The notes under the pieces were generated by a model that made no database searches, was not told where the DNA came from, and saw only the letters and a program-made list of their open reading frames with translations. From Pseudoglutamicibacter cumminsii (lineage in GTDB: Bacteria > Actinomycetota > Actinomycetes > Actinomycetales > Micrococcaceae): DNA of 64,000 bases. The stretch is from assembly GCF_003143995.1 (NCBI RefSeq), contig NZ_QFWG01000002.1, forward strand, positions 248,001 through 312,000. The letters run 5' to 3'. Shown one piece after another: positions 40,921-51,040 of the stretch; the first letter of the stretch is position 1; each line of letters opens with the position of its first letter. The position numbers and the translations under genes were made by a program.

Positions 40921-41235
40921 CCGGCGCTAGGAGCTCGGCGCCAGCCTGTCGCCGCCCGCCGCCCGCCATCGTCCGCCGCCGCCCGCCATCGTCCGCTAAC
41001 CCACCCCCCAATTCGCGCTCTCGGGAACCTCTTCGCGTTCCTCCAGGCTCGCCGCAGAGCGTTTTCAGGATCAATTCAGAATTGGGTTATACCTTCTTTA
41101 CGAACCTTTACGGCGCGCTGCATTCTGCGAATCAGTTTTCGCTCTCCACGATGTATGCCACTGTGGGTAGCCCCGCGACGAGTCTTGCGATCAGCGCCAC
41201 GGACGCGCCAACCGTTTTACCGTGAAAGGGAAACT
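40921..41235. other. Intergenic region with 20-bp tandem repeat
   Basis: 315 bases without a gene. GCCCGCCATCGTCCGC occurs at 40961-40976 and 40981-40996, period 20. The promoter region of the ABC exporter follows. Confidence 0.5.
41072..41091 (+). promoter_or_regulatory. Operator/promoter candidate of the ABC exporter
   Basis: The perfect inverted repeat CAATTC-A-GAATTG (41072-41084) lies directly before GTTATACC, a weak -10-like stretch. Confidence 0.35.
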
Positions 41236-42603
41236 GTGACGTTTCTGGGAAGGGCTTGGCGCTATTGTGTCCGCAAGCCTGTCAAAACTCTGATTATTTT
41301 TGTTGTTCTTGCCGTGATGGCGACTGTGGTGATGTCCGCGGGGGCTGTGACGCGTTCTGCGGATCAGGTAGCGCAGGAGGTGGACGCAAAGACCGGTAGT
41401 GGTTTCGTGTTGGAGAACAATCCGCAGTACAACATGGGTACGCCGCGCGGCGCGGGCAACGTCAAGCCGGCTGATATTGAAAAGCTCGCGGGCCTGGACG
41501 GTGTTGCTTCGCATGTGGCCCGGCAGAACGTGACCGCTGATCTTGTGGGTGCGAAGGTGCTCAAGCCGGATCACGACGACTATGACCAGCAACGCGAGGC
41601 ACAGTTCGGTAACGCTGTGAACGTGTGGGGTGTGAACCGTAGCGATATGGCTAACGCGTTCCGTAGCGGCTCGTTGAAGCTCGTTGAAGGCCGCCACTTG
41701 ACGGCTGAGGACAAGAACAAGGCCGTGATTCACGAGGATCTGGCGAAAGCGAATAACCTCAAGCTCGGCAGCACCCTCACCTTGAAGGGCAACAAGTACG
41801 ACGCCGATAACCAGAAGCAGTCCACGAAGGAAGTAAAGACTGAGGTTGTGGGCATCGTTTCGGGTAAGAACACCCGCCCGGTTGCTGTGCGTAGCGAGCT
41901 GTACGCGAACACGGTATTCACTGACTTGGATACCACGCGTGCGCTGTATCAGTTCACGCCAGAAACCGAGATTTATCAGGACGCGAACTTCTTCGTGGCT
42001 AAAGACGCCAACTTCGAGGATGTCGTGAAGGCCGCCGCGGCACAGGGCATCGACTGGAACAACTATCAGCTCTCGCGTTCGGCCGAGTACCTCGCCGGCA
42101 TCACCGGGGCGGTCGATGGCGTCAAGAGCATCATGAGCAACACGATGGTGGGTGCCACTATCTTCGCGGCCGCAGTGGTTGCGCTGGTGTTGTTCTTGTG
42201 GCTCAACGAACGCAAGAAAGAAACCGGAACCCTGCTCGCCATCGGCGTTCGCAAGGGCAACATCACGGCCCAGTACTTCGCGGAGCTCATCCTGATCGCG
42301 ATTCCGGCGTTCATCCTCGCGTACTTCGCTTCGAGTGCCGTCGCTCAGTGGATGGGTAGCGTGACGCTCGCGAGCGTGAACAAGTCCACTGAGCAGCAGA
42401 TGGAGCAGGCAGGCCAGTTCGGTGCGGACATGGAGTCTTCAGCATCGCTTCAGACGCTGGATAGCCTCGCTGTTGGCCTGACCAATGGTTCGGTGATCCA
42501 GGCCGTGATTATCTGCGTGGCTGTGATCGCGGTGGTCGTTGCGATCACGTCGATCCCGATGCTGCGTAAGAGCCCTCGCGCGATCCTCGTGGACAACAAA
42601 TGA
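41236..42603 (+). CDS. FtsX/MacB-type ABC transporter permease
   Basis: About 455 residues. One N-terminal membrane helix (about 17-38) is followed by a large external domain (to about 310) and three C-terminal helices, the layout of FtsX-domain permeases. A GTG at 41236 with GAAAGGG upstream is preferred over an ATG 27 codons earlier. Its stop overlaps the second permease start by four bases. With that permease and the ATPase it should form an exporter for a peptide, lipid or antimicrobial. The substrate is unknown. Confidence 0.82.
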   Translation: MTFLGRAWRYCVRKPVKTLIIFVVLAVMATVVMSAGAVTRSADQVAQEVDAKTGSGFVLENNPQYNMGTPRGAGNVKPADIEKLAGLDGVASHVARQNVTADLVGAKVLKPDHDDYDQQREAQFGNAVNVWGVNRSDMANAFRSGSLKLVEGRHLTAEDKNKAVIHEDLAKANNLKLGSTLTLKGNKYDADNQKQSTKEVKTEVVGIVSGKNTRPVAVRSELYANTVFTDLDTTRALYQFTPETEIYQDANFFVAKDANFEDVVKAAAAQGIDWNNYQLSRSAEYLAGITGAVDGVKSIMSNTMVGATIFAAAVVALVLFLWLNERKKETGTLLAIGVRKGNITAQYFAELILIAIPAFILAYFASSAVAQWMGSVTLASVNKSTEQQMEQAGQFGADMESSASLQTLDSLAVGLTNGSVIQAVIICVAVIAVVVAITSIPMLRKSPRAILVDNK

Positions 42604-43886
42604 CGAACCCGTGGCCTCGAGCAATCCGTAGCGTCCTGCGTAAACCGCGGCGCAGCGTCCTGATGATCCTCATCATGGCCGTTGTGTTCACCGCGCTCGT
42701 TGCGCAGTCTGGTGTGCGTTCCTCTATGGCTGAAGTGAAGAACGCGATCAGCGCCAACGTTGGCGCTGGCTTCACCGCAACAGCAGCCGTCGATGCGGCG
42801 CCTGGTTCTGAAGCACAGCCCGGTTCCGATGCGCAGCAGCAGCCACCTGCCCAGCAGGCACCAGCCGAGCAAGCCGGCGTCGATGAGAAGGTCGCTGAGC
42901 GTTTGGCGGGCATCCCGCAGGTGGGTAAGCACAGCCTGGAGGCGGAGACGATCGCCCAACCTGAGGGTGCCAAGCCGGTCACGAGCGGCCGCGGGGTTCA
43001 GTTGGATCCTGAGTTCGCTGGCGGTGTCACTGTGACCGGCACGAGTGATTCTTCGCTCAACCCGGCCTTCCAGGGCAAGCTGTATCAGCTGGTTGAGGGT
43101 ACGCATGTGGCCGCAACCGCATCGCAGGCTGTGATCCATCGGGACTTCGCTGAGCACAACAACCTCAAGCTGGGGGACAAGCTGGCCCTCACCCAGGGTG
43201 GCAAGAAGGTCACCGTGACGGTCGCCGGCATCTTTGAAGGGAAGACAGAGAACCCGAGCGGGCTTCCGGCCGGCGCCTCAGAGAACAACGTGTTTGTGGA
43301 CCTCGCTTCAGCGCAGGAGCTCGGCGCGCCGATCACGGCTGGACGCTATTTCACGCACAACGCGGAGGAGCTACCGCAGGCGCTCGCCGCGGCCAAGAAG
43401 ATCGCTCCGAAACTGACGCTGGAAGACAACTCGGCACAGTTCGCGCCGGTTCTTCAGGCGATCACTGGTGTGGACAAGCTCTTGGCGACGATGCTACTGG
43501 GTTTGAGCATCGCTGGTGCGCTGGTGCTCGCGTTGGTGAGCACGTTCTGGGCTCGCGGCCGCATCCACGAGGTGGGTGTGTTGCTTTCGCTCGGGAAAAG
43601 CAAAGGCAATGTGCTTTCGCAATTCGCGCTTGAAGCAACTATTTTCGCGGCCGTCGCCGCCGCCATTTCAGCGGTGCTCGGGTCAGTTCTTTCGGGTTCT
43701 CTCGGCCGGGCGGTTGTGGCCCAGGCCGGGGACGAGACCCTTTCCTCGATCCACCTCGCGACCAGCGCCAGCGGTATCGCTACAGCGCTCGCGTGGGGAT
43801 TCATCATCGTCTTGATGGGCGTTTCGGTGGGGGTTTTGCCTCTCATCATGCAGCGTCCAAAACGCATTCTTTCGAAACTTAGTTAG
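42600..43886 (+). CDS. Second FtsX-type ABC permease
   Basis: 428 residues with the same topology as the preceding permease: helix at about 20-40, external domain with a Gln/Pro/Ala-rich insert (about 63-90), and three helices in the last 130 residues. The two are only distantly similar and probably form a heterodimer. It is coupled to its neighbour by an ATGA overlap and followed after eight bases by the ATPase. Confidence 0.85.
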   Translation: MTNPWPRAIRSVLRKPRRSVLMILIMAVVFTALVAQSGVRSSMAEVKNAISANVGAGFTATAAVDAAPGSEAQPGSDAQQQPPAQQAPAEQAGVDEKVAERLAGIPQVGKHSLEAETIAQPEGAKPVTSGRGVQLDPEFAGGVTVTGTSDSSLNPAFQGKLYQLVEGTHVAATASQAVIHRDFAEHNNLKLGDKLALTQGGKKVTVTVAGIFEGKTENPSGLPAGASENNVFVDLASAQELGAPITAGRYFTHNAEELPQALAAAKKIAPKLTLEDNSAQFAPVLQAITGVDKLLATMLLGLSIAGALVLALVSTFWARGRIHEVGVLLSLGKSKGNVLSQFALEATIFAAVAAAISAVLGSVLSGSLGRAVVAQAGDETLSSIHLATSASGIATALAWGFIIVLMGVSVGVLPLIMQRPKRILSKLS

Positions 43887-43894
43887 GAAAAATT

Positions 43895-44533
43895 ATGTCT
43901 ATCATGCAGCTTGAGAACGTCGATTTCACGTACGGTAGCGCCGCTCAGCGCGTTTTGAAGAACGTGAGCTATGACTTCGAGGTCGGCACGTTTTACGCGA
44001 TCGTGGGTTCTTCCGGCGCCGGCAAGACCACGATGCTGAGCTTGCTCGCAGGCCTCGATGCGCCCACAAACGGGGTTGTACGCTTCGACGGCAACGACAT
44101 CGCCTCCACCGGCTACACACGCCACCGCCGCGACCAGATCGCGTTGGTGTTCCAGAACTACAACCTCATCGACTACCTCACCCCACTCGAGAACCTGCGT
44201 CTCGTGAACTCGAAGGCCACGGTTGAGGACCTCACCCGCCTGGGGCTCGATGCGGCGGCAGCTAAGCGGAATGTGTTGGCTTTGTCGGGTGGCCAGCAGC
44301 AGCGCGTCGCGATCGGCCGCGCACTCGTGTCCTCGGCCCCGGTGATCTTGGCTGATGAGCCTACGGGTAACCTGGATGAAGAAACCGCGGACGGCGTGAT
44401 CGAGATTTTGCGTGATGCCGCGCATCAGCAGAACAAGTGTGTCATCGTGGTGACCCACTCGAAGCAGCTGGCGAAGGCAGCGGATGTCACGTTGCGTCTT
44501 GAGCGCCGCAACCTTGTGGAGCACCGCAACTGA
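43895..44533 (+). CDS. ABC transporter ATP-binding protein (LolD/MacB type)
   Basis: 212 residues. Walker [11 protein letters not shown]-loop F-Q-N-Y-N-L-I, signature [10 protein letters not shown], Walker [13 protein letters not shown] and H-loop V-T-H-S. It energises the two FtsX permeases upstream. Typical length for the LolD-type subfamily. A strong stem-loop follows. Confidence 0.93.
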
Positions 44534-44544
44534 CTCCGGCGCCG

Positions 44545-44576
44545 GGTGCCGCATCGGCGCTGGCCGATGCGGCACC
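44545..44576 (+). terminator. Strong stem-loop after the ABC operon
   Basis: A perfect 14-bp stem GGTGCCGCATCGGC / GCCGATGCGGCACC with a GCTG loop, 11 bases after the ATPase stop. It has no T run, so it is either a U-less terminator or an RNA-stability element. Confidence 0.55.
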
Positions 44577-44644
44577 GCTGGTAGCCGCCACCGCATCGTC
44601 CGCTGCATCCGACACAACCGCATCCCACACAGAGGAGAGCACTC

Positions 44645-44989
44645 ATGAGCGAGACCATCAAGATCCCTGTCAGTGACATCCCGGAGGCGGAGGCCTACTT
44701 GGTTCCGGGTGATGAGAACTCGACCGGCGAGGACATTTCGGTGTTCCATGCCGAGGATGGCTCGTTCTATGCGCTCAATGACGAGTGCACTCACGAGGTC
44801 GCAAGCCTCGCCGATGGCTGGATCGAAGGCACCGAGGTTGAATGCCCGATGCATGCGGCCCGGTTCTGCCTCAAGAGCGGTAAGGCGTTGTGCTTGCCGG
44901 CCACGGTGGACGCGAAGACACACAAGGTTGAGGTCGAAGGCGACACCGTGGTCCTGTACCCGGGTGTCCCTGCCACTGACGCTGAATGA
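44645..44989 (+). CDS. Rieske-type 2Fe-2S ferredoxin
   Basis: 114 residues. The cluster ligands are C-T-H (C-x-H) and C-P-M-H (C-x-x-H) about 20 residues apart, as in non-haem dioxygenase ferredoxins. No membrane segment, so it is a soluble electron carrier. GAGGAG precedes the ATG. Its stop overlaps the reductase start (ATGA), so the pair is one electron-transfer unit; the terminal oxygenase is not in the window. Confidence 0.9.
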   Translation: MSETIKIPVSDIPEAEAYLVPGDENSTGEDISVFHAEDGSFYALNDECTHEVASLADGWIEGTEVECPMHAARFCLKSGKALCLPATVDAKTHKVEVEGDTVVLYPGVPATDAE

Positions 44990-46317
44990 TGGCGGTGGGG
45001 TCTGTTGCCATCGTCGGTGGTGGCGTGGCTGGTTTCACGGTCGCGCAAGAGCTGCGTTCGCGTGGCTTTGACGGCGAGATCACGATGGTGGAGCCGGGTG
45101 GGCTGCCCTATGATCGGCCGCCGCTGTCGAAGGATTATCTGCTGGGCGCTCAGACGCTCGAACAGATTCAGTTCCAGCCGCGGGAATGGTTCGTTGAGAA
45201 CCGCGTGACGCTCATCGAGGACTCGGCCGTGGCGGTAGACGCTCCAGCGGCTGGTTCCGCTAATGACCAACCAACCGTCCGGTTGAGTAACGGCGATGCG
45301 GTGGCCGCCGACCGCATCGTGCTCGCTACGGGCGGTGCCGCCCGCAAGCTCCCGGTTCCCGGCGGCGAGCTGCCCGAGGTCCTCGAGCTGCGCACCCGCG
45401 CCGACGCTGACCGTTTGCGAGACAGCGTCGGCGAAGGCACCCGCATCGTTGTTGTGGGCGCCGGGTTGATCGGTGCGGAAGCGGCTTCGACACTGTTGGC
45501 GCTGGGTGCTGACGTGACTCTTGTGGAGCCGGCTCAGCCGCCGCTTGTCCCCGCTGTTGGACCGGTGCTGGCCGAGTATCTTCACGCGATGCACGCTGAA
45601 CGCGGGATCGACGTCATCCAGTCCGCCCCCGCGCGCATCGAAGTGGGCGGTACTGAGCTCGATGGGGCCGAGATCGATGGCGCCGAGCGGGTCGTCACGC
45701 TCACGGACGGCACGCAGCTGCGGGCAGGTCAGGTCCTGGTGGGTATTGGCATCACACCGAACACGGCGCTCGCCGAAGCCATGGGTCTTGAAGTCAACGA
45801 CGGCGTGGTTGTCGATGAGCGCCAGCAGACCTCGAATCCCGCGGTCTTTGCCGTGGGCGATGCCGCTCGCATGCGCACCGCAGACGGCGAGCTTTTGCCG
45901 CGCGCGGAGCATTGGGAGAACGCGATGCACAGCGGCGCCCGAGCGGCCGCCGCGATCCTGGGGCAGGACATTCCTCAGCAAGGTGCGCCGTGGTTCTGGT
46001 CTGACCGCCACGGAGTTCACGTCGAAGGCGTGGGCTCGCTGGCACCCCAGCCAGTAGCCCACCCGGCACCCCACCCGGAGGCCGGAGCGGCGGACTCAGC
46101 CCAGTACATTCACCGGTTCAACGGGGACGGCACTCCGCAGGCGACGTTCCTGCTGAATCCGGATGGAAGCATGGCGGGGTGCGCCGCTGTCGATGGCGGC
46201 ATGACGGTGCGTGCTGCCCGCCGCATCATCGATCAGGGGATCGTTGTCCCCGCCGATGCGTTGGCCGATCCGTCGGTTCCGCTCCGGAAACTCGCCCGCC
46301 CGCCCCGGAATGCATAG
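44986..46317 (+). CDS. Ferredoxin reductase (FAD, NAD(P)H)
   Basis: 443 residues. The FAD motif is I-V-G-G-G-V-A-G-F, the NAD motif V-V-G-A-G-L-I-G-A-E, and the second FAD motif F-A-V-G-D-A-A. P-Y-D-R-P-P-L-S-K is characteristic of dioxygenase/P450-type ferredoxin reductases. The C-terminal domain includes an Ala/Pro/His insert. It is co-translated with the Rieske ferredoxin. The acceptor oxygenase is unknown. Confidence 0.9.
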   Translation: MMAVGSVAIVGGGVAGFTVAQELRSRGFDGEITMVEPGGLPYDRPPLSKDYLLGAQTLEQIQFQPREWFVENRVTLIEDSAVAVDAPAAGSANDQPTVRLSNGDAVAADRIVLATGGAARKLPVPGGELPEVLELRTRADADRLRDSVGEGTRIVVVGAGLIGAEAASTLLALGADVTLVEPAQPPLVPAVGPVLAEYLHAMHAERGIDVIQSAPARIEVGGTELDGAEIDGAERVVTLTDGTQLRAGQVLVGIGITPNTALAEAMGLEVNDGVVVDERQQTSNPAVFAVGDAARMRTADGELLPRAEHWENAMHSGARAAAAILGQDIPQQGAPWFWSDRHGVHVEGVGSLAPQPVAHPAPHPEAGAADSAQYIHRFNGDGTPQATFLLNPDGSMAGCAAVDGGMTVRAARRIIDQGIVVPADALADPSVPLRKLARPPRNA

Positions 46318-46427
46318 CGGACGCCCGGCCGCTGCCCAGCGTTCGGCTCCGACGCCGCACCCACGCGCAAACCCGGGAAACATAGCTAAAACGAACCTCA
46401 GGTAAACGTGGTCTGAAGTTTCGCGTC

Positions 46428-46507
46428 GTTGTCGCTAATTCGGTACAAAATCCGGGTTGTTGGCGACAGATCTGCGATAGGTTGAAGCGTCCTTCGCCGT
46501 AGCGTTG
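46428..46507 (+). promoter_or_regulatory. Conserved upstream element, copy 1
   Basis: GTTGTCGC (46428), TAC-A-AAA, GACA-N3-CTGCGA and CGTAGCGTTG (46498) occur in the same order and spacing as at 47826. Probably a shared promoter/regulator region of the two lipoprotein/OmpA pairs. Confidence 0.5.
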
Positions 46508-46577
46508 ATATCAACGGGGCGGCAGAAAGCCACTCCACGAAAACTCAACTGAAGCTAGTAGACGCGAAAGGTTCGTC

Positions 46578-47255
46578 ATGTTTAAGTCAGCAACTTCTAA
46601 AGCGATCGTATGTTTGGGGCTTGCGACCTCGCTCGCTTTGACCGGCTGCTCGGTTGGTGTGAGCGATGAGGGTAAGGACAACACCCAGAATGCTGAGCAG
46701 GCTTCGGCTCAGCAGCAGGGTGCCCAGCCGCAGGACGGCGGCTCGATGACTCAGGAGAGCCAGCCTGCTGAGGGTCCGGAGGAGAGCGCCACTGCTTCGG
46801 GCGAGGACCAGGGCGGCAACGCTGAAGGTACGGCATCGGGTGATGGCGTCACAGCGGATTCCTTGGAGGCGTTGGCGAGCACCACGGTTCGTACAAAAAT
46901 CGGTGGAAATGATGACGCGAGCCTGACTGTTGAGTTGCTCTCGGTTAAGCGGAAGGGTGATCTGATCGAGGCGGTGTACGGCTTCACCGCGAACACGGAC
47001 ACAACTGACCTCACGTCTTCGGTATTCGATGTGAATGACAACTCGCAGTTCTGGCCTTACCTGATTGACCAGAAGAATTTGAACCGCCATTCGCTGGTCC
47101 GGGACGCTTCGGATAATGCCGCGAAGATCAAACTGATGCCGAATAAGCGGGTCACGGGTAAGTTCGTGTTCCCGGCCCCTCCTGAGGATGTTCACGAGAT
47201 GGACTTCCAGCTGTGGCGTGGCGCCGAGATGGCGAAGGACGTGAAGATCGATTGA
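46578..47255 (+). CDS. Lipoprotein of the lipoprotein/OmpA pair, copy 1
   Basis: 225 residues. Lipoprotein signal A-L-T-G-C-S-V-G-V-S-D-E-G, a Gln/Glu/Gly-rich linker (to about 85), then a beta-rich domain ending P-P-E-D-V-H-E-M-D. It is paralogous to the gene at 47954. GCGAAAGG precedes the ATG. Its stop is inside TTGA, which also holds the TTG start of the OmpA gene. Function unknown; a cell-envelope role is inferred from the partner. Confidence 0.75.
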   Translation: MFKSATSKAIVCLGLATSLALTGCSVGVSDEGKDNTQNAEQASAQQQGAQPQDGGSMTQESQPAEGPEESATASGEDQGGNAEGTASGDGVTADSLEALASTTVRTKIGGNDDASLTVELLSVKRKGDLIEAVYGFTANTDTTDLTSSVFDVNDNSQFWPYLIDQKNLNRHSLVRDASDNAAKIKLMPNKRVTGKFVFPAPPEDVHEMDFQLWRGAEMAKDVKID

Positions 47256-47761
47256 AACGCAGGAAAGTAGTTGCAGCAGCGGCGGTGGCGTCGATGCTTG
47301 CGTTGACAGTCCAGCCGGCGTCGGCGAGCGACGGCAAGATCAGTCCTCTCGATATCAACATCACGCCGCTTGATATCAACATCACTCCGCTTGGGACCAA
47401 GGAGAAAGACGGCAACGAGGATGTTGTGACGTTGTCTTCTGACGTTCTGTTCGACATCGATAAGCATGAGCTTTCGGATAACGCGAAGAAGAAGATCGGC
47501 GCCCTGGTCAAGGACATCCCGAAGAACGCGAAGATTTCGGTGGGTGGCCACACAGACAACGTGAAGTCGAAGGTCGGGAACAAGAAGCTTTCCGAGCTGC
47601 GTGCAAAGTCTGTGGCCGATGCGGTCAAGGCTGCCCGCAAGGACCTCAAGGTCGATGCGAAGGGCTTCGCAGATTCGAAGCCGGTAGCGGATAACGGCTC
47701 GGATGCTAAACCGAACTTGGAGGGCCGCGCACAGAACCGTCGCGTGGAGATCCGGTACTGA
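47252..47761 (+). CDS. Secreted OmpA-domain protein, copy 1
   Basis: 169 residues. Signal peptide with A-S-A-S, a short repeat (I-S-P-L-D-I-N-I-T-P-L twice) and an OmpA-like peptidoglycan-binding domain: F-D-I-D-K-H-E-L, V-G-G-H-T-D-N, L-S-E-L-R-A-K-S-V-A and N-R-R-V-E-I. TTG 47252 overlaps the lipoprotein stop and yields a proper signal sequence; the in-frame upstream start does not. It probably binds the cell wall and interacts with the lipoprotein. Confidence 0.85.
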   Translation: MKRRKVVAAAAVASMLALTVQPASASDGKISPLDINITPLDINITPLGTKEKDGNEDVVTLSSDVLFDIDKHELSDNAKKKIGALVKDIPKNAKISVGGHTDNVKSKVGNKKLSELRAKSVADAVKAARKDLKVDAKGFADSKPVADNGSDAKPNLEGRAQNRRVEIRY

Positions 47762-47825
47762 ACCGCCGCGTCTAGATCCGGTACTAAAGCGCGGGCCCAG
47801 GGCCCGGTACTGACGGGTTTCCGGG

Positions 47826-47904
47826 GTTGTCGCGATATCGATACGAAAACTCACTGTTTGAGACAAAGCTGCGAAAAAACGCCTCCTGATTGTTCGTAGC
47901 ATTG
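47826..47904 (+). promoter_or_regulatory. Conserved upstream element, copy 2
   Basis: The same blocks as at 46428: GTTGTCGC (47826), TACGAAA, GACA-N3-CTGCGA and CGTAGCATTG (47895), with spacing differing by one base. Confidence 0.5.
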
Positions 47905-47953
47905 TAAACGAGACGGAGGCACACAGCTTTCTGTAAAGGCGAAAGGTTTAGCT

Positions 47954-48631
47954 ATGAACAAGTCAACTGCTAGCAAGATGATCCTGGGCCTGGCGCTCGC
48001 CTCATCCATTGGTTTGGCGGGCTGCTCGGTGGGTGTGAGCGATGAGGGCCAGGACCAGAACGCGAACCAGGCTTCTGCACAGCAGAGCACCCAGGACGAC
48101 AACGCAACCACGGAAGACCAAGCCCAGACCACGTCGGGCGATTCCACCGCAACCGATTCCACCGCATCGGACAATGCAACTGACCAGGGCAACGACTCCG
48201 GCGAAGGTAGCCAGTCCGGCGAGATGGACAACCGGGAACCGATCCTGACCGTCACCACGGGCGTGACTGTGGAAGGCGATAAGGACGCCAAGCTGACCAT
48301 CGACATGCTTGAGGCGAAGCGTGAAGGCAAGTTCGTCAAGGTCGTCTACGGCTACACGCTGCACACCACCGCGGAAGATGAAGGCAAGTTCAACCTGTGG
48401 AAGGTCGCGGGGAATCAGCACCTCGTGACTGAGTACGCGATCGACCAGAAGAACCTCAACAAGCATGAGCGGCTGAACGCTCGAGCGACCACCAACCAGG
48501 TTGTGCACCTGACCCCGGGGAAGCGCGTGTATTCGACGTCCGTGTTCGCGGCTCCACCTGAGGACGTACACGAGATGGACATCAACTTGTGGAACAGCGT
48601 GGAGATGGCTCAGGGGGTTGAGATCGATTGA
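47954..48631 (+). CDS. Lipoprotein of the lipoprotein/OmpA pair, copy 2
   Basis: 225 residues. G-C-S-V-G-V-S-D-E-G at the lipobox and P-P-E-D-V-H-E-M-D near the end are identical to copy 1; the Gln/Asn/Thr-rich linker and middle domain are diverged. It has a GCGAAAGG ribosome site. It overlaps the OmpA gene by TTGA like copy 1. Tandem duplication of the pair is evident. Confidence 0.75.
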   Translation: MNKSTASKMILGLALASSIGLAGCSVGVSDEGQDQNANQASAQQSTQDDNATTEDQAQTTSGDSTATDSTASDNATDQGNDSGEGSQSGEMDNREPILTVTTGVTVEGDKDAKLTIDMLEAKREGKFVKVVYGYTLHTTAEDEGKFNLWKVAGNQHLVTEYAIDQKNLNKHERLNARATTNQVVHLTPGKRVYSTSVFAAPPEDVHEMDINLWNSVEMAQGVEID

Positions 48632-49170
48632 GGCGCGTAACAGGTGTTGCGGCGTCGCTCGTGGCTCTCGCCTTGGTGGCGGGGGCGCAACCGGCGCTCG
48701 CGGATGATGATCTGTCTGAACTGAGCGATGAAGAGATTTCTGACTCGATTCATCCGATTGATCCGATGATCGAAAAGATGGATCTGGGCATCAAGAAGCT
48801 TGAAACTAAGCGGAAAGAAGAGGGCAAGGAAGTCCTGAGTCTTTCCTCTGACATCCTTTTCAACATCGATAAGCATGAGCTTTCTGATAACGCGAAGAAG
48901 CGCATCGGTGAGCTGGTCAAGGATGTTCCGAAGGGTGCGAAGATTTCGGTGGGTGGCCACACGGATAACGTGCCGTCGAAGGTCGGGAACAAGAAGCTTT
49001 CCGAACTGCGTGCAAAGTCTGTCGCTGATGCGATCAAGGCGGCGCGCAAGGATGTCAAGGTTGATGCGAAGGGCTTCGCTGACTCGAAGCCGGTTGCCGA
49101 TAACGGCAGCAAAGAGAAGCCGAATTTCGAAGGCCGTGAGAAGAACCGACGGGTCGAAATTCGTTATTAG
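48628..49170 (+). CDS. Secreted OmpA-domain protein, copy 2
   Basis: 180 residues. Signal peptide ending A-L-A-D, a charged helical linker, and an OmpA domain nearly identical to copy 1 (F-N-I-D-K-H-E-L, G-G-H-T-D-N, G-F-A-D-S-K-P-V-A-D, N-R-R-V-E-I-R-Y). It starts at TTG like copy 1. A two-component system follows 74 bases downstream and may regulate or sense this envelope function. Confidence 0.85.
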   Translation: MRRVTGVAASLVALALVAGAQPALADDDLSELSDEEISDSIHPIDPMIEKMDLGIKKLETKRKEEGKEVLSLSSDILFNIDKHELSDNAKKRIGELVKDVPKGAKISVGGHTDNVPSKVGNKKLSELRAKSVADAIKAARKDVKVDAKGFADSKPVADNGSKEKPNFEGREKNRRVEIRY

Positions 49171-49244: not shown

Positions 49245-49967
49245 ATGGGCGGTGTTGCGCCTCGTCCGCAGATTCTGTTGGTTGATGACGACGCGACCAT
49301 CAGGGAACATCTGGCACCCGTTTTGAGCCGGAACGGTTTGGACGTGGACGTCGCCGTGGACGGAGCGGATGCGCTGCGGAAGATTGAGCACCGCCGCCCG
49401 AGCTTGGTTATTTTGGATGTTTTGATGCCGCGGGTTGATGGCCGCGAGGTTTTGCGCCGCATCCGAGCCGATGACGACTGGCTTCCGGTGATCCTGTTGA
49501 CGGAGGTCGGGGAGTCGTTCGAACGTGCCGCCGCGCTCGATGACGGCGCTGATGACTACTTGACCAAGCCTTTCGATCCGGTCGAGTTGATGGCTCGGAT
49601 TCGCGCGGTGTTGCGGCGTAGCGGGCAGGGTGGTGCCCCGCTGAGTGCGGCGGAGTCGCTGGTTGCTGGCGATCTGAAGCTGGACAGGCCCGCTCGCCGT
49701 ATTTTTGTTGACGGCCGCGAGAAGTCGTTGACCCCGCGGGCGTTCGCGTTGCTCGAGTTCTTGATGAGCCACCCTGATGAAGTGTTTTCGAGGCAGCGTC
49801 TGCTGGAGACCGTGTGGGGTTTCGAGGCGATCGTGACCACCCGTGCGGTTGACCACCGTGTTGCTGAGATCCGCAAGGTGATCGGCGATGCGGGCGCCGG
49901 TCAGTCCTTGATCGAGACGGTCTCAGGCGAAGGCTACCGTTTCGCTGGCGAGGTGGAGCGCGCATGA
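49245..49967 (+). CDS. OmpR-family response regulator
   Basis: 240 residues. Receiver motifs: L-V-D-D-D-A, phospho-acceptor in I-L-D-V-L-M-P, Y-L-T-K-P-F. The DNA-binding winged helix shows L-T-P-R-A-F-A-L-L-E-F and E-G-Y-R-F-A-G. ATG 49245 has TAGGAG six bases upstream; a GTG two codons earlier is possible. It overlaps the kinase by four bases. A possible regulator of the upstream OmpA pairs, from position only. Confidence 0.88.
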   Translation: MGGVAPRPQILLVDDDATIREHLAPVLSRNGLDVDVAVDGADALRKIEHRRPSLVILDVLMPRVDGREVLRRIRADDDWLPVILLTEVGESFERAAALDDGADDYLTKPFDPVELMARIRAVLRRSGQGGAPLSAAESLVAGDLKLDRPARRIFVDGREKSLTPRAFALLEFLMSHPDEVFSRQRLLETVWGFEAIVTTRAVDHRVAEIRKVIGDAGAGQSLIETVSGEGYRFAGEVERA

Positions 49968-51040
49968 ACCAGCCGCCACGCCCAACTGAATTACAGGGCC
50001 AATCGGCGCCGCATCCGCCGATCATGCCCCCAGCCCACCACGGCAACACTGAGCCGGCCCCGCGTCAGCCGTCCCCGCATCGTACCCAACAGCCGCGCCA
50101 GCAACCGCGCTCACAGCCACAACAGCAACAGCGCAAGCAGCGTCGCAGCGGCAAGCTGAATTGGACGTTGTTGTGGGTTTTTGCGCCGCTGGTGGTGGGG
50201 CTTGTCGCGAGCCTCGTGTGGGCTCCACTTGATAGCGGCAAGGTTTTGACGGCCGCGACCCAGCTCGCGTGGGTTCCTTTCATTCTGGGGCTCTTTGCGA
50301 CTGCCCTGTTGCTTACTGGCTGGTGGGCTGTCAGCTGGTTGCGTCGGGGCGAGGTGCGCGCCGTTCGCAAGGAGCGTGAGGAGCAGACGCAGCGCCGGCA
50401 TCGGCTCATGGCGCGTCTGGATCACGAGTTGAAGAACCCTATTCAGGGGATCCGTGCCGCGCTCGCGGATGAGCCGTCGCAGCGGCAGCTCGACAGCATC
50501 GGCGTCCAGGCTCAGCGGCTTTCTAGCCTGTTGAGTGACTTGCGGAAGATCAGCGAGGTTGAGCACGCGGAGCTTGAGATGACAAGCGTGGACCTCACGG
50601 AGCTGGTGGAGGAAGCCGTTCAGACGGTCATGGAGGTTCCTGGCGCGCGTGAGCGTCACATCGAGGTCGCTCTGCCGCGGGCACCGCGTCCGTTGCCGCG
50701 CATTCATGGGGACTCGGACCTGCTGTTCCTCGCTATCTCTAATGTGCTGAGCAACGCGGTGAAGTATTCGGAGCCGGGCGCGCGCATCGAAATCCATGGC
50801 CGTGAGGCGGACGGTTCGGTCTATATTGACTGCGCGGACACGGGCCGCGGCATCGCGCCGGATGAGCTGGAGACGGTGTGGGAAGAGCTTGGCCGTTCGC
50901 GTGAGGTGCGCGGCACCGAGGGTAGTGGCTTGGGGCTGCCGATGGTGCGGGCCATCATCGAGCGGCACGGCGGTTCCACGGGACTGGAGTCGTGGCACGG
51001 CCAGGGCTCTAAGGTGACGTTGCGTTTACCTGTGGGGTAG
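49964..51040 (+). CDS. Sensor histidine kinase
   Basis: 358 residues. A cytoplasmic Pro/Gln-rich N-terminus of about 65 residues precedes two membrane helices (about 68-88 and 98-120) with almost no external loop. Then come H-box L-D-H-E-L-K-N-P-I-Q-G, N-box N-V-L-S-N-A-V-K-Y-S, D-T-G-R-G-I-A and G-S-G-L-G-L-P. The missing sensor domain suggests intramembrane sensing of envelope stress. Coupled to the regulator gene. Confidence 0.9.
   Translation: MNQPPRPTELQGQSAPHPPIMPPAHHGNTEPAPRQPSPHRTQQPRQQPRSQPQQQQRKQRRSGKLNWTLLWVFAPLVVGLVASLVWAPLDSGKVLTAATQLAWVPFILGLFATALLLTGWWAVSWLRRGEVRAVRKEREEQTQRRHRLMARLDHELKNPIQGIRAALADEPSQRQLDSIGVQAQRLSSLLSDLRKISEVEHAELEMTSVDLTELVEEAVQTVMEVPGARERHIEVALPRAPRPLPRIHGDSDLLFLAISNVLSNAVKYSEPGARIEIHGREADGSVYIDCADTGRGIAPDELETVWEELGRSREVRGTEGSGLGLPMVRAIIERHGGSTGLESWHGQGSKVTLRLPVG

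Follow-up and report, generated by a model that had tools for sequence, protein, structure and literature searches.

A lipoprotein and OmpA-domain gene pair recurring in Actinomycetota, a possible split membrane-to-wall tether

Introduction

In diderm bacteria the envelope is held together by Pal, OmpA and Lpp, and lipoproteins of the Pal/YiaD type are placed in the outer membrane with their anchor and OmpA domain on one chain. The non-covalent attachment of membrane to thick wall by proteins in monoderm actinobacteria has, to our knowledge, been little studied. Here we describe a unit of two genes, one for a lipoprotein and one for a secreted OmpA-domain protein, that stands twice in tandem in a 64,000-nucleotide stretch (hereafter the window, to whose positions coordinates refer unless a locus is named) of the 2.09-Mb genome of Pseudoglutamicibacter cumminsii, a member of the Micrococcaceae. 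Labels of the form L### and G### denote loci and genomes, and A5, A7 and A8 denote the profiles built in this analysis.

The unit shares a lipid anchor and an OmpA domain with the Pal and YiaD-type lipoproteins (TIGR02802, NF053611) but differs from them in being split over two genes, in belonging to a monoderm, in including an additional conserved domain and in bearing its lipobox on the partner gene, the OmpA chain having one only in fused relatives. In NCBIfam, the window OmpA proteins come closest to the YiaD and PA1041 types, and all of the matches listed fall below cut-off (Pal_lipo 31.6 and 28.4 bits against 125, YiaD 78 and 75 against 175), so the module is not placed in the Pal or YiaD families. 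Rv0899 (ArfA/OmpATb) of Mycobacterium tuberculosis is likewise an actinobacterial OmpA-domain protein and is among the solved-structure matches of the window OmpA (2kgw, 2lbt); we take it to have a BON-type partner domain, a membrane helix and an arfABC operon, and we know of no lipoprotein of the present family in that system. Gene pairs in Streptomyces recorded as 'hypothetical protein' and 'OmpA family protein' form the same two-gene unit in three of four plasmid records opened; the S. chartreusis plasmid record (L205), whose gene table is incomplete, lists no 'OmpA family protein' beside the match. These differ from the window pairs in that the lipoprotein is left unnamed and its domain often carries a CxC motif. 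Finally, four PknB-type serine/threonine (Ser/Thr) kinases carry the domain of the lipoprotein as their outer part, though on a different gene and with no OmpA domain on the chain. Literature searches, which left most subscription journals outside their coverage, found no paper on the lipoprotein and OmpA pair.

Results and discussion

Structure of the two pairs

Lipoprotein 1 (46578-47255, + strand) consists of a signal peptide, the lipobox LTGC, an acidic linker and a C-terminal domain (46857-47252), and has no Pfam family; it is followed by OmpA protein 1 (47252-47761, +), which has a TTG start. Lipoprotein 2 (47954-48631, +; lipobox LAGC, C-terminal domain 48227-48628) precedes OmpA protein 2 (48628-49170, +), also with a TTG start. 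The preliminary description of this DNA had reported two tandem pairs overlapping by TTGA, and this holds at both junctions, which read GATTGA and in which the lipoprotein stop TGA and the OmpA start TTG make up the 4-base overlap. The stretches GCSVGVSDEG and PPEDVHEMD that it had seen in both lipoproteins are indeed identical between copies 1 and 2. Over their length the two lipoproteins are 43% identical and the two OmpA proteins 70%. Both OmpA proteins score above the gathering score of PF00691 (E 9e-11 and 2e-10) and, by eye, have a signal peptide of their own and no anchor of their own. The signal peptide and lipobox cysteine of bacterial lipoproteins are present in both window copies, and the lipobox pattern recurs in 34 of the 40 lipoprotein open reading frames (ORFs) of the family set described below, one of which (L106, degraded) is probably spurious; the six without it are fragments or have mechanically over-long starts.

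Linkage of the pair across Micrococcaceae, phylum and class

Among 295 Micrococcaceae genomes, 32 (own genome included), from 8 of 32 genera, matched a profile of the C-terminal domain. Loci were taken for all 41 matched places and gave 40 lipoprotein ORFs, the degraded L106 and L109 counted among them. An OmpA ORF lies directly downstream in 39, and the remaining one is a degraded copy with OmpA fragments. The OmpA start could overlap the lipoprotein stop by 4 bases in 28 cases and by 1 base in 3, the arrangement being another in 8 and lacking in 1. As the neighbouring genes differ between genera, the pair behaves as a conserved unit. Another lipoprotein-like gene follows the pair in 6 of the 33 loci from other Micrococcaceae; two of these genes were scanned and had no Pfam family.

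Beyond the family, a broader profile found six non-own genomes among 296 from the phylum, and an OmpA gene directly follows the match in all six. The A8 profile, built from these six phylum members and two Micrococcaceae rows (L116, L117) without the window sequences, matches both window lipoproteins (E 3.7e-7 and 5.3e-6). It matched 11 of the 296 phylum genomes, 8 of them from one genus that is taken to be Streptomyces because its 11 matches in plasmid records are all from Streptomyces, and 51 of 246 class genomes (own included). All 84 non-own rows of the class search yielded 73 loci and 85 ORFs, or 84 after L229 was dropped as a false match on reading its frame, which by eye we take to resemble an acyl-CoA thioesterase. 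Adjacency was scored on the same strand, with the OmpA domain starting at most 600 bases downstream or the OmpA gene ending at most 120 bases upstream. Of the 84 domain ORFs, 38 stand directly before an OmpA gene and 12 directly after one (11 by script and L162, whose mechanical start lies inside its neighbour, by reading); 29 form a fusion with OmpA, 4 a fusion with a Ser/Thr kinase, and L210 is alone. Thus 79 of 84 are adjacent or fused to OmpA, which, given a handful of OmpA genes per genome, would be far beyond chance.

The scattering without linkage that had been named beforehand as fatal to the idea was not seen, as almost every copy is linked in the samples from family, phylum and class. 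That OmpA domains are uncommon in monoderm actinobacteria agrees with the 50 of 295 Micrococcaceae genomes that match an OmpA profile, but less well with the presumed Streptomyces, since all eight such genomes among those listed carry a relative of the lipoprotein. Some Micrococcaceae genera (in genomes G244, G236, G152, G012 and others) have long OmpA proteins with open frames of about 360-690 amino acids, and there are up to six OmpA matches per genome.

The lipoprotein domain and its fusions

The C-terminal domain matched no model of the curated Pfam and NCBIfam collections, scans of 28 and 8 members returning scattered weak matches only, so that a known unrelated function, the other outcome named as refuting, was not found. 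PDB profile searches with the domain gave nothing credible and Foldseek with the first AlphaFold model (mean predicted local distance difference test, pLDDT, of 55) gave no match at E<=0.001. The pair is real and extends further than first noted, as a recurrent module whose domain has no name in any curated family.

Profile-profile comparison joins the window-type domain to its relatives elsewhere. With A5, which shares no row with the targets, the probabilities were 98.8% for the Streptomyces type, 97.2% for the fused type, 91.2% for the kinase type and 83.3% for the OmpA-domain fusion type, against 2.8% for the N-terminal region of that last type. A7 gave 99.4% for the Streptomyces type (two shared rows, L116 and L117), 98.0% for the fused type, 96.3% for the kinase type, 96.8% for the OmpA-domain fusion, 13.0% for its N-terminal region and 0.1% for an OmpA control. 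A CxC motif inside the domain was noted in 41 of 84 class ORFs as against 2 of 40 Micrococcaceae ORFs, the window copies having none; it is possibly a metal or redox site.

The fusions occur in both orders, domain-OmpA and OmpA-domain, the domain-OmpA fusions standing before another copy of the domain that is separate and secreted, and in L184 the two separate genes stand in reversed order, OmpA before lipoprotein. A lipobox pattern lies near the start in five of the nine fused proteins displayed, the others having mechanical starts or variant motifs. These architectures bear on two other explanations. The lipoprotein might be a chaperone or holder, with no tethering role, of an OmpA protein that is secreted to act at another place as an adhesin or surface antigen; the gene order and overlap would suit such a couple, as would an OmpA protein that by eye has its own signal peptide and lacks its own anchor, but a transient chaperone would not tolerate the natural one-chain fusions, and we regard this account as improbable. 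Alternatively, the domain could be a general beta-sandwich module linked to OmpA merely by shared export and operon inertia, in keeping with the weak resemblance, below threshold, that individual members show to Big_5, DUF1573 and FxLYD. The persistence of the pair while its neighbours differ between genera and the fusions in two orders speak against this, and it seems to us highly improbable.

A proposed split tether

As the two genes are almost always together in the actinobacteria that carry them, they suggest an undescribed membrane-to-wall clip or wall sensing. On balance we think it probable, by a modest measure, that the two proteins form a split, Pal-like tether from the cytoplasmic membrane to the wall of a monoderm bacterium, a model in which we infer the contact between the proteins, the wall binding, the regulator binding and the physiological role. 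The lipoprotein would be lipid-anchored on the outer face of the cytoplasmic membrane, where its acidic linker would carry a domain, probably beta-rich, to hold the OmpA protein, and the OmpA domain would in turn grip peptidoglycan stem peptides. The gene overlap may supply the two proteins in matched amounts, and the actinobacteria that fuse both domains may possess the tether as one chain. In Pseudoglutamicibacter, the adjacent OmpR/PhoB-type regulator likely reads direct-repeat sites upstream of both pairs, so that the tether would be made on an envelope signal.

Wall binding is the step for which OmpA itself offers a precedent. Asp271 and Arg286 of Acinetobacter baumannii OmpA bind diaminopimelate (PMC5974059). 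The HTD and LSxxRA motifs of the window OmpA, which we read as corresponding to these residues, align with OprF and are invariant in 8 of 8 aligned sequences; of the OmpA ORFs, 66 of 68 in the class set and 40 of 42 in the family set retain the Asp/Arg pattern, the four exceptions being L217 and L218 (SD, with LSxxRA kept), a 375-amino-acid OmpA protein in L099 (LAxxRA) and the degraded L106.

Several observations weigh against the tether. DNPR in MurE marks diaminopimelate addition, and the MurE of the host (L236, G000:C10:28439-29908) has DDPH in its place. The wall of P. cumminsii is therefore probably lysine-type and the OmpA ligand there a lysine-type stem peptide, so that a simple transfer from OmpA, the known ligand of which is diaminopimelate, is weakened; the available portion of PMC6113628 contains nothing on the wall type. 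With no profile match in 263 of 295 family genomes, the pair is dispensable, and overlap between OmpA start and lipoprotein stop is missing in 8 of the 40 family ORFs. Divergent lone relatives could have been missed by profiles that were built from pair members. Two AlphaFold models, made from the four window sequences and those of L022, are mainly of strands with a mean pLDDT of 55, which leaves the fold unproven.

Kinases and the question of sensing

Four Ser/Thr kinases have the lipoprotein domain as their outer C-terminal part, namely a tandem in L170 (2423-3910 and 3795-5414), one in L171 (2090-3553) and one in L214 (2434-4047), three of them checked with Pfam and that of L214 assigned by motif only. 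Separately, 6 of the 33 other family loci have a gene for a Ser/Thr kinase upstream of the pair (by clustering; 3 Pfam-checked), with a sigma-70-type factor, presumably of the extracytoplasmic function (ECF) class as judged by eye, beyond the kinase in 4 (1 Pfam-checked). In L025 (5190-6050 and 7508-9455, -), the pair is placed behind a sigma-70-type factor and a Ser/Thr kinase, as in some other genera.

Directly behind the window pairs is a two-component system. Its OmpR/PhoB-type response regulator (49245-49967, +; PF00072, PF00486) is listed as an ORF from GTG 49239, and by eye ATG 49245 stands behind AGGAG. The histidine kinase (49964-51040, +; PF00512, PF02518) has two membrane stretches with a minimal outer loop, the hydrophobic peak windows at residues 69-87 and 101-119 leaving about 13 residues between them in the hydropathy profile, in line with the earlier remark that there is hardly any sensor loop. 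Intramembrane-sensing histidine kinases have two membrane helices and a loop under about 25 residues, and by hydropathy the window kinase fits this description. The proteins miss the NCBIfam equivalog cut-offs for PhoB (196 of 296 bits), PhoR (117 of 334), MtrA (179 of 300), CseB (171 of 350) and WalK (87 of 725). The N-terminal extension of the kinase (49964-50130) is rich in proline and glutamine, and the P. albus and G065 proteins align with it only from residue 45 of the window kinase.

The regulator and kinase adjoin the pair in all four Pseudoglutamicibacter genomes. They do so in none of the 33 other Micrococcaceae loci compared by BLAST with the window proteins, four of which have a regulator match at least 3 kb away. 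At E<=1e-60, 6 of 114 other genomes contained relatives of the regulator, 53-56% identical to it, and the pair is absent from the 9-16 kb read around these closest two-component relatives. The two-component system was thus rejected as part of the conserved unit beyond Pseudoglutamicibacter, where alone the linkage holds. Of the preliminary proposal of an undescribed cell-wall tethering or sensing system, the near-total linkage and the domain without a curated family stand and the conserved pair plus kinase does not, while tethering and sensing are put forward as interpretation.

A reading of the pair as mainly a sensor, in which wall occupancy of the OmpA protein would alter the contact of the lipoprotein domain with a kinase in the membrane (the short-loop histidine kinase in the window, a Ser/Thr kinase in other genomes) and so report the state of the wall, draws on all these kinases: the adjoining one almost without an outer loop, those upstream of pairs with their sigma factors, and those that carry the domain. 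The latter two kinds make a sensing role possible. However, most pairs have no kinase found alongside, the two-component linkage is limited to one genus, the kinases upstream of pairs bear a different outer part by eye, and the kinase type is the weaker domain link to the window type (91% with A5). We consider a mainly sensory pair doubtful.

Candidate control sites of the pairs

The regulation proposed for the tether is suggested by the upstream regions. The same blocks had been reported before both pairs at nearly the same spacing, and they are there: GTTGTCGC at 46428 and 47826 and CGTAGC(G/A)TTG at 46498 and 47895 lie 70 and 69 bases apart. All seven aligned upstream regions of the genus contain TGTCGC-n2-WWYCGRTAC, then GMGACA-n5-GCGAWA, then CGTA-n2-(G/A)TTG. 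The first of these blocks, TGTCGCNNWWYCGRTAC (46430-46446, +, in 7 of 7 aligned regions), has two matches in the 2.09-Mb genome, both at these pairs, the second at 47828-47844 (+), and its control has none. The direct-repeat sites are GCGACA-n5-GCGATA at 46463-46479 (+) for pair 1 and GAGACA-n5-GCGAAA at 47860-47876 (+) for pair 2; their 11-base repeat distance is that expected for OmpR/PhoB-type regulators. A second, operator-like repeat site on the minus strand (46419-46435, GCGACA-n5-GCGAAA) played no part in deriving the pattern and is preserved intact at pair 1 but not at pair 2. It is one of three genome-wide matches of GMGACAN5GCGAWA, all in these two upstream regions; the reversed control pattern occurs twice, so one or two matches are expected by chance. 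The third block, CGTAGCGTTG at pair 1 (46498-46507, +), aligned with CGTAGCATTG at pair 2 (47895-47904, +), contains a TAnnnT-type -10 candidate and may act as a promoter; a sigma-70 promoter scan found none.

Copies and neighbourhood within Pseudoglutamicibacter

Both pairs are present in three of the four genomes of the genus, and G065 has pair 2 only. The P. albus (L022) lipoprotein is 84% identical to that of the window. First-copy lipoproteins are 84-91% identical to each other and second copies 80-89%, while first and second copies share 38-45%. Because like copies match across genomes far better than the two kinds do, the duplication is older than these species. The region upstream of the single pair of G065 (L024) is a hybrid, its left part resembling that of pair 1 and its right part that of pair 2, and the simplest account is that G065 probably lost pair 1 through recombination between the two upstream blocks.

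The region before the pairs (41155-46317) encodes two FtsX-type permeases, an ABC ATPase, a small and by eye Rieske-type protein and a pyridine-nucleotide reductase, an order that the genus preserves over the extent of the loci. A mobile origin was considered and rejected: the window-type domain had no match among plasmids, but the Streptomyces-type domain is present on 11 plasmid records, all from Streptomyces, so plasmid carriage exists in that genus. No relative on a viral contig was found in two scans, with a Streptomyces-type query and a family member of Arthrobacter-like size. OmpA-domain matches occur in 19 phage records, the hosts of which, where given, are mostly Acinetobacter, Pseudomonas, Salmonella and Listeria.

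Conclusion

A unit that persists amid differing neighbours, and also in Streptomyces, is a directly testable candidate for membrane-wall attachment. We tentatively raise the possibility, as a broader and less secure reading than the tether, that the lipoprotein domain is a new OmpA-binding envelope module across Actinomycetota, serving as a membrane clamp when paired with OmpA or, in Ser/Thr kinases, as the outer sensor, which would couple wall attachment to kinase signalling also where the wall has no diaminopimelate. Its occurrence as the external part of some Ser/Thr kinases gives a hint of what these enzymes might recognise.

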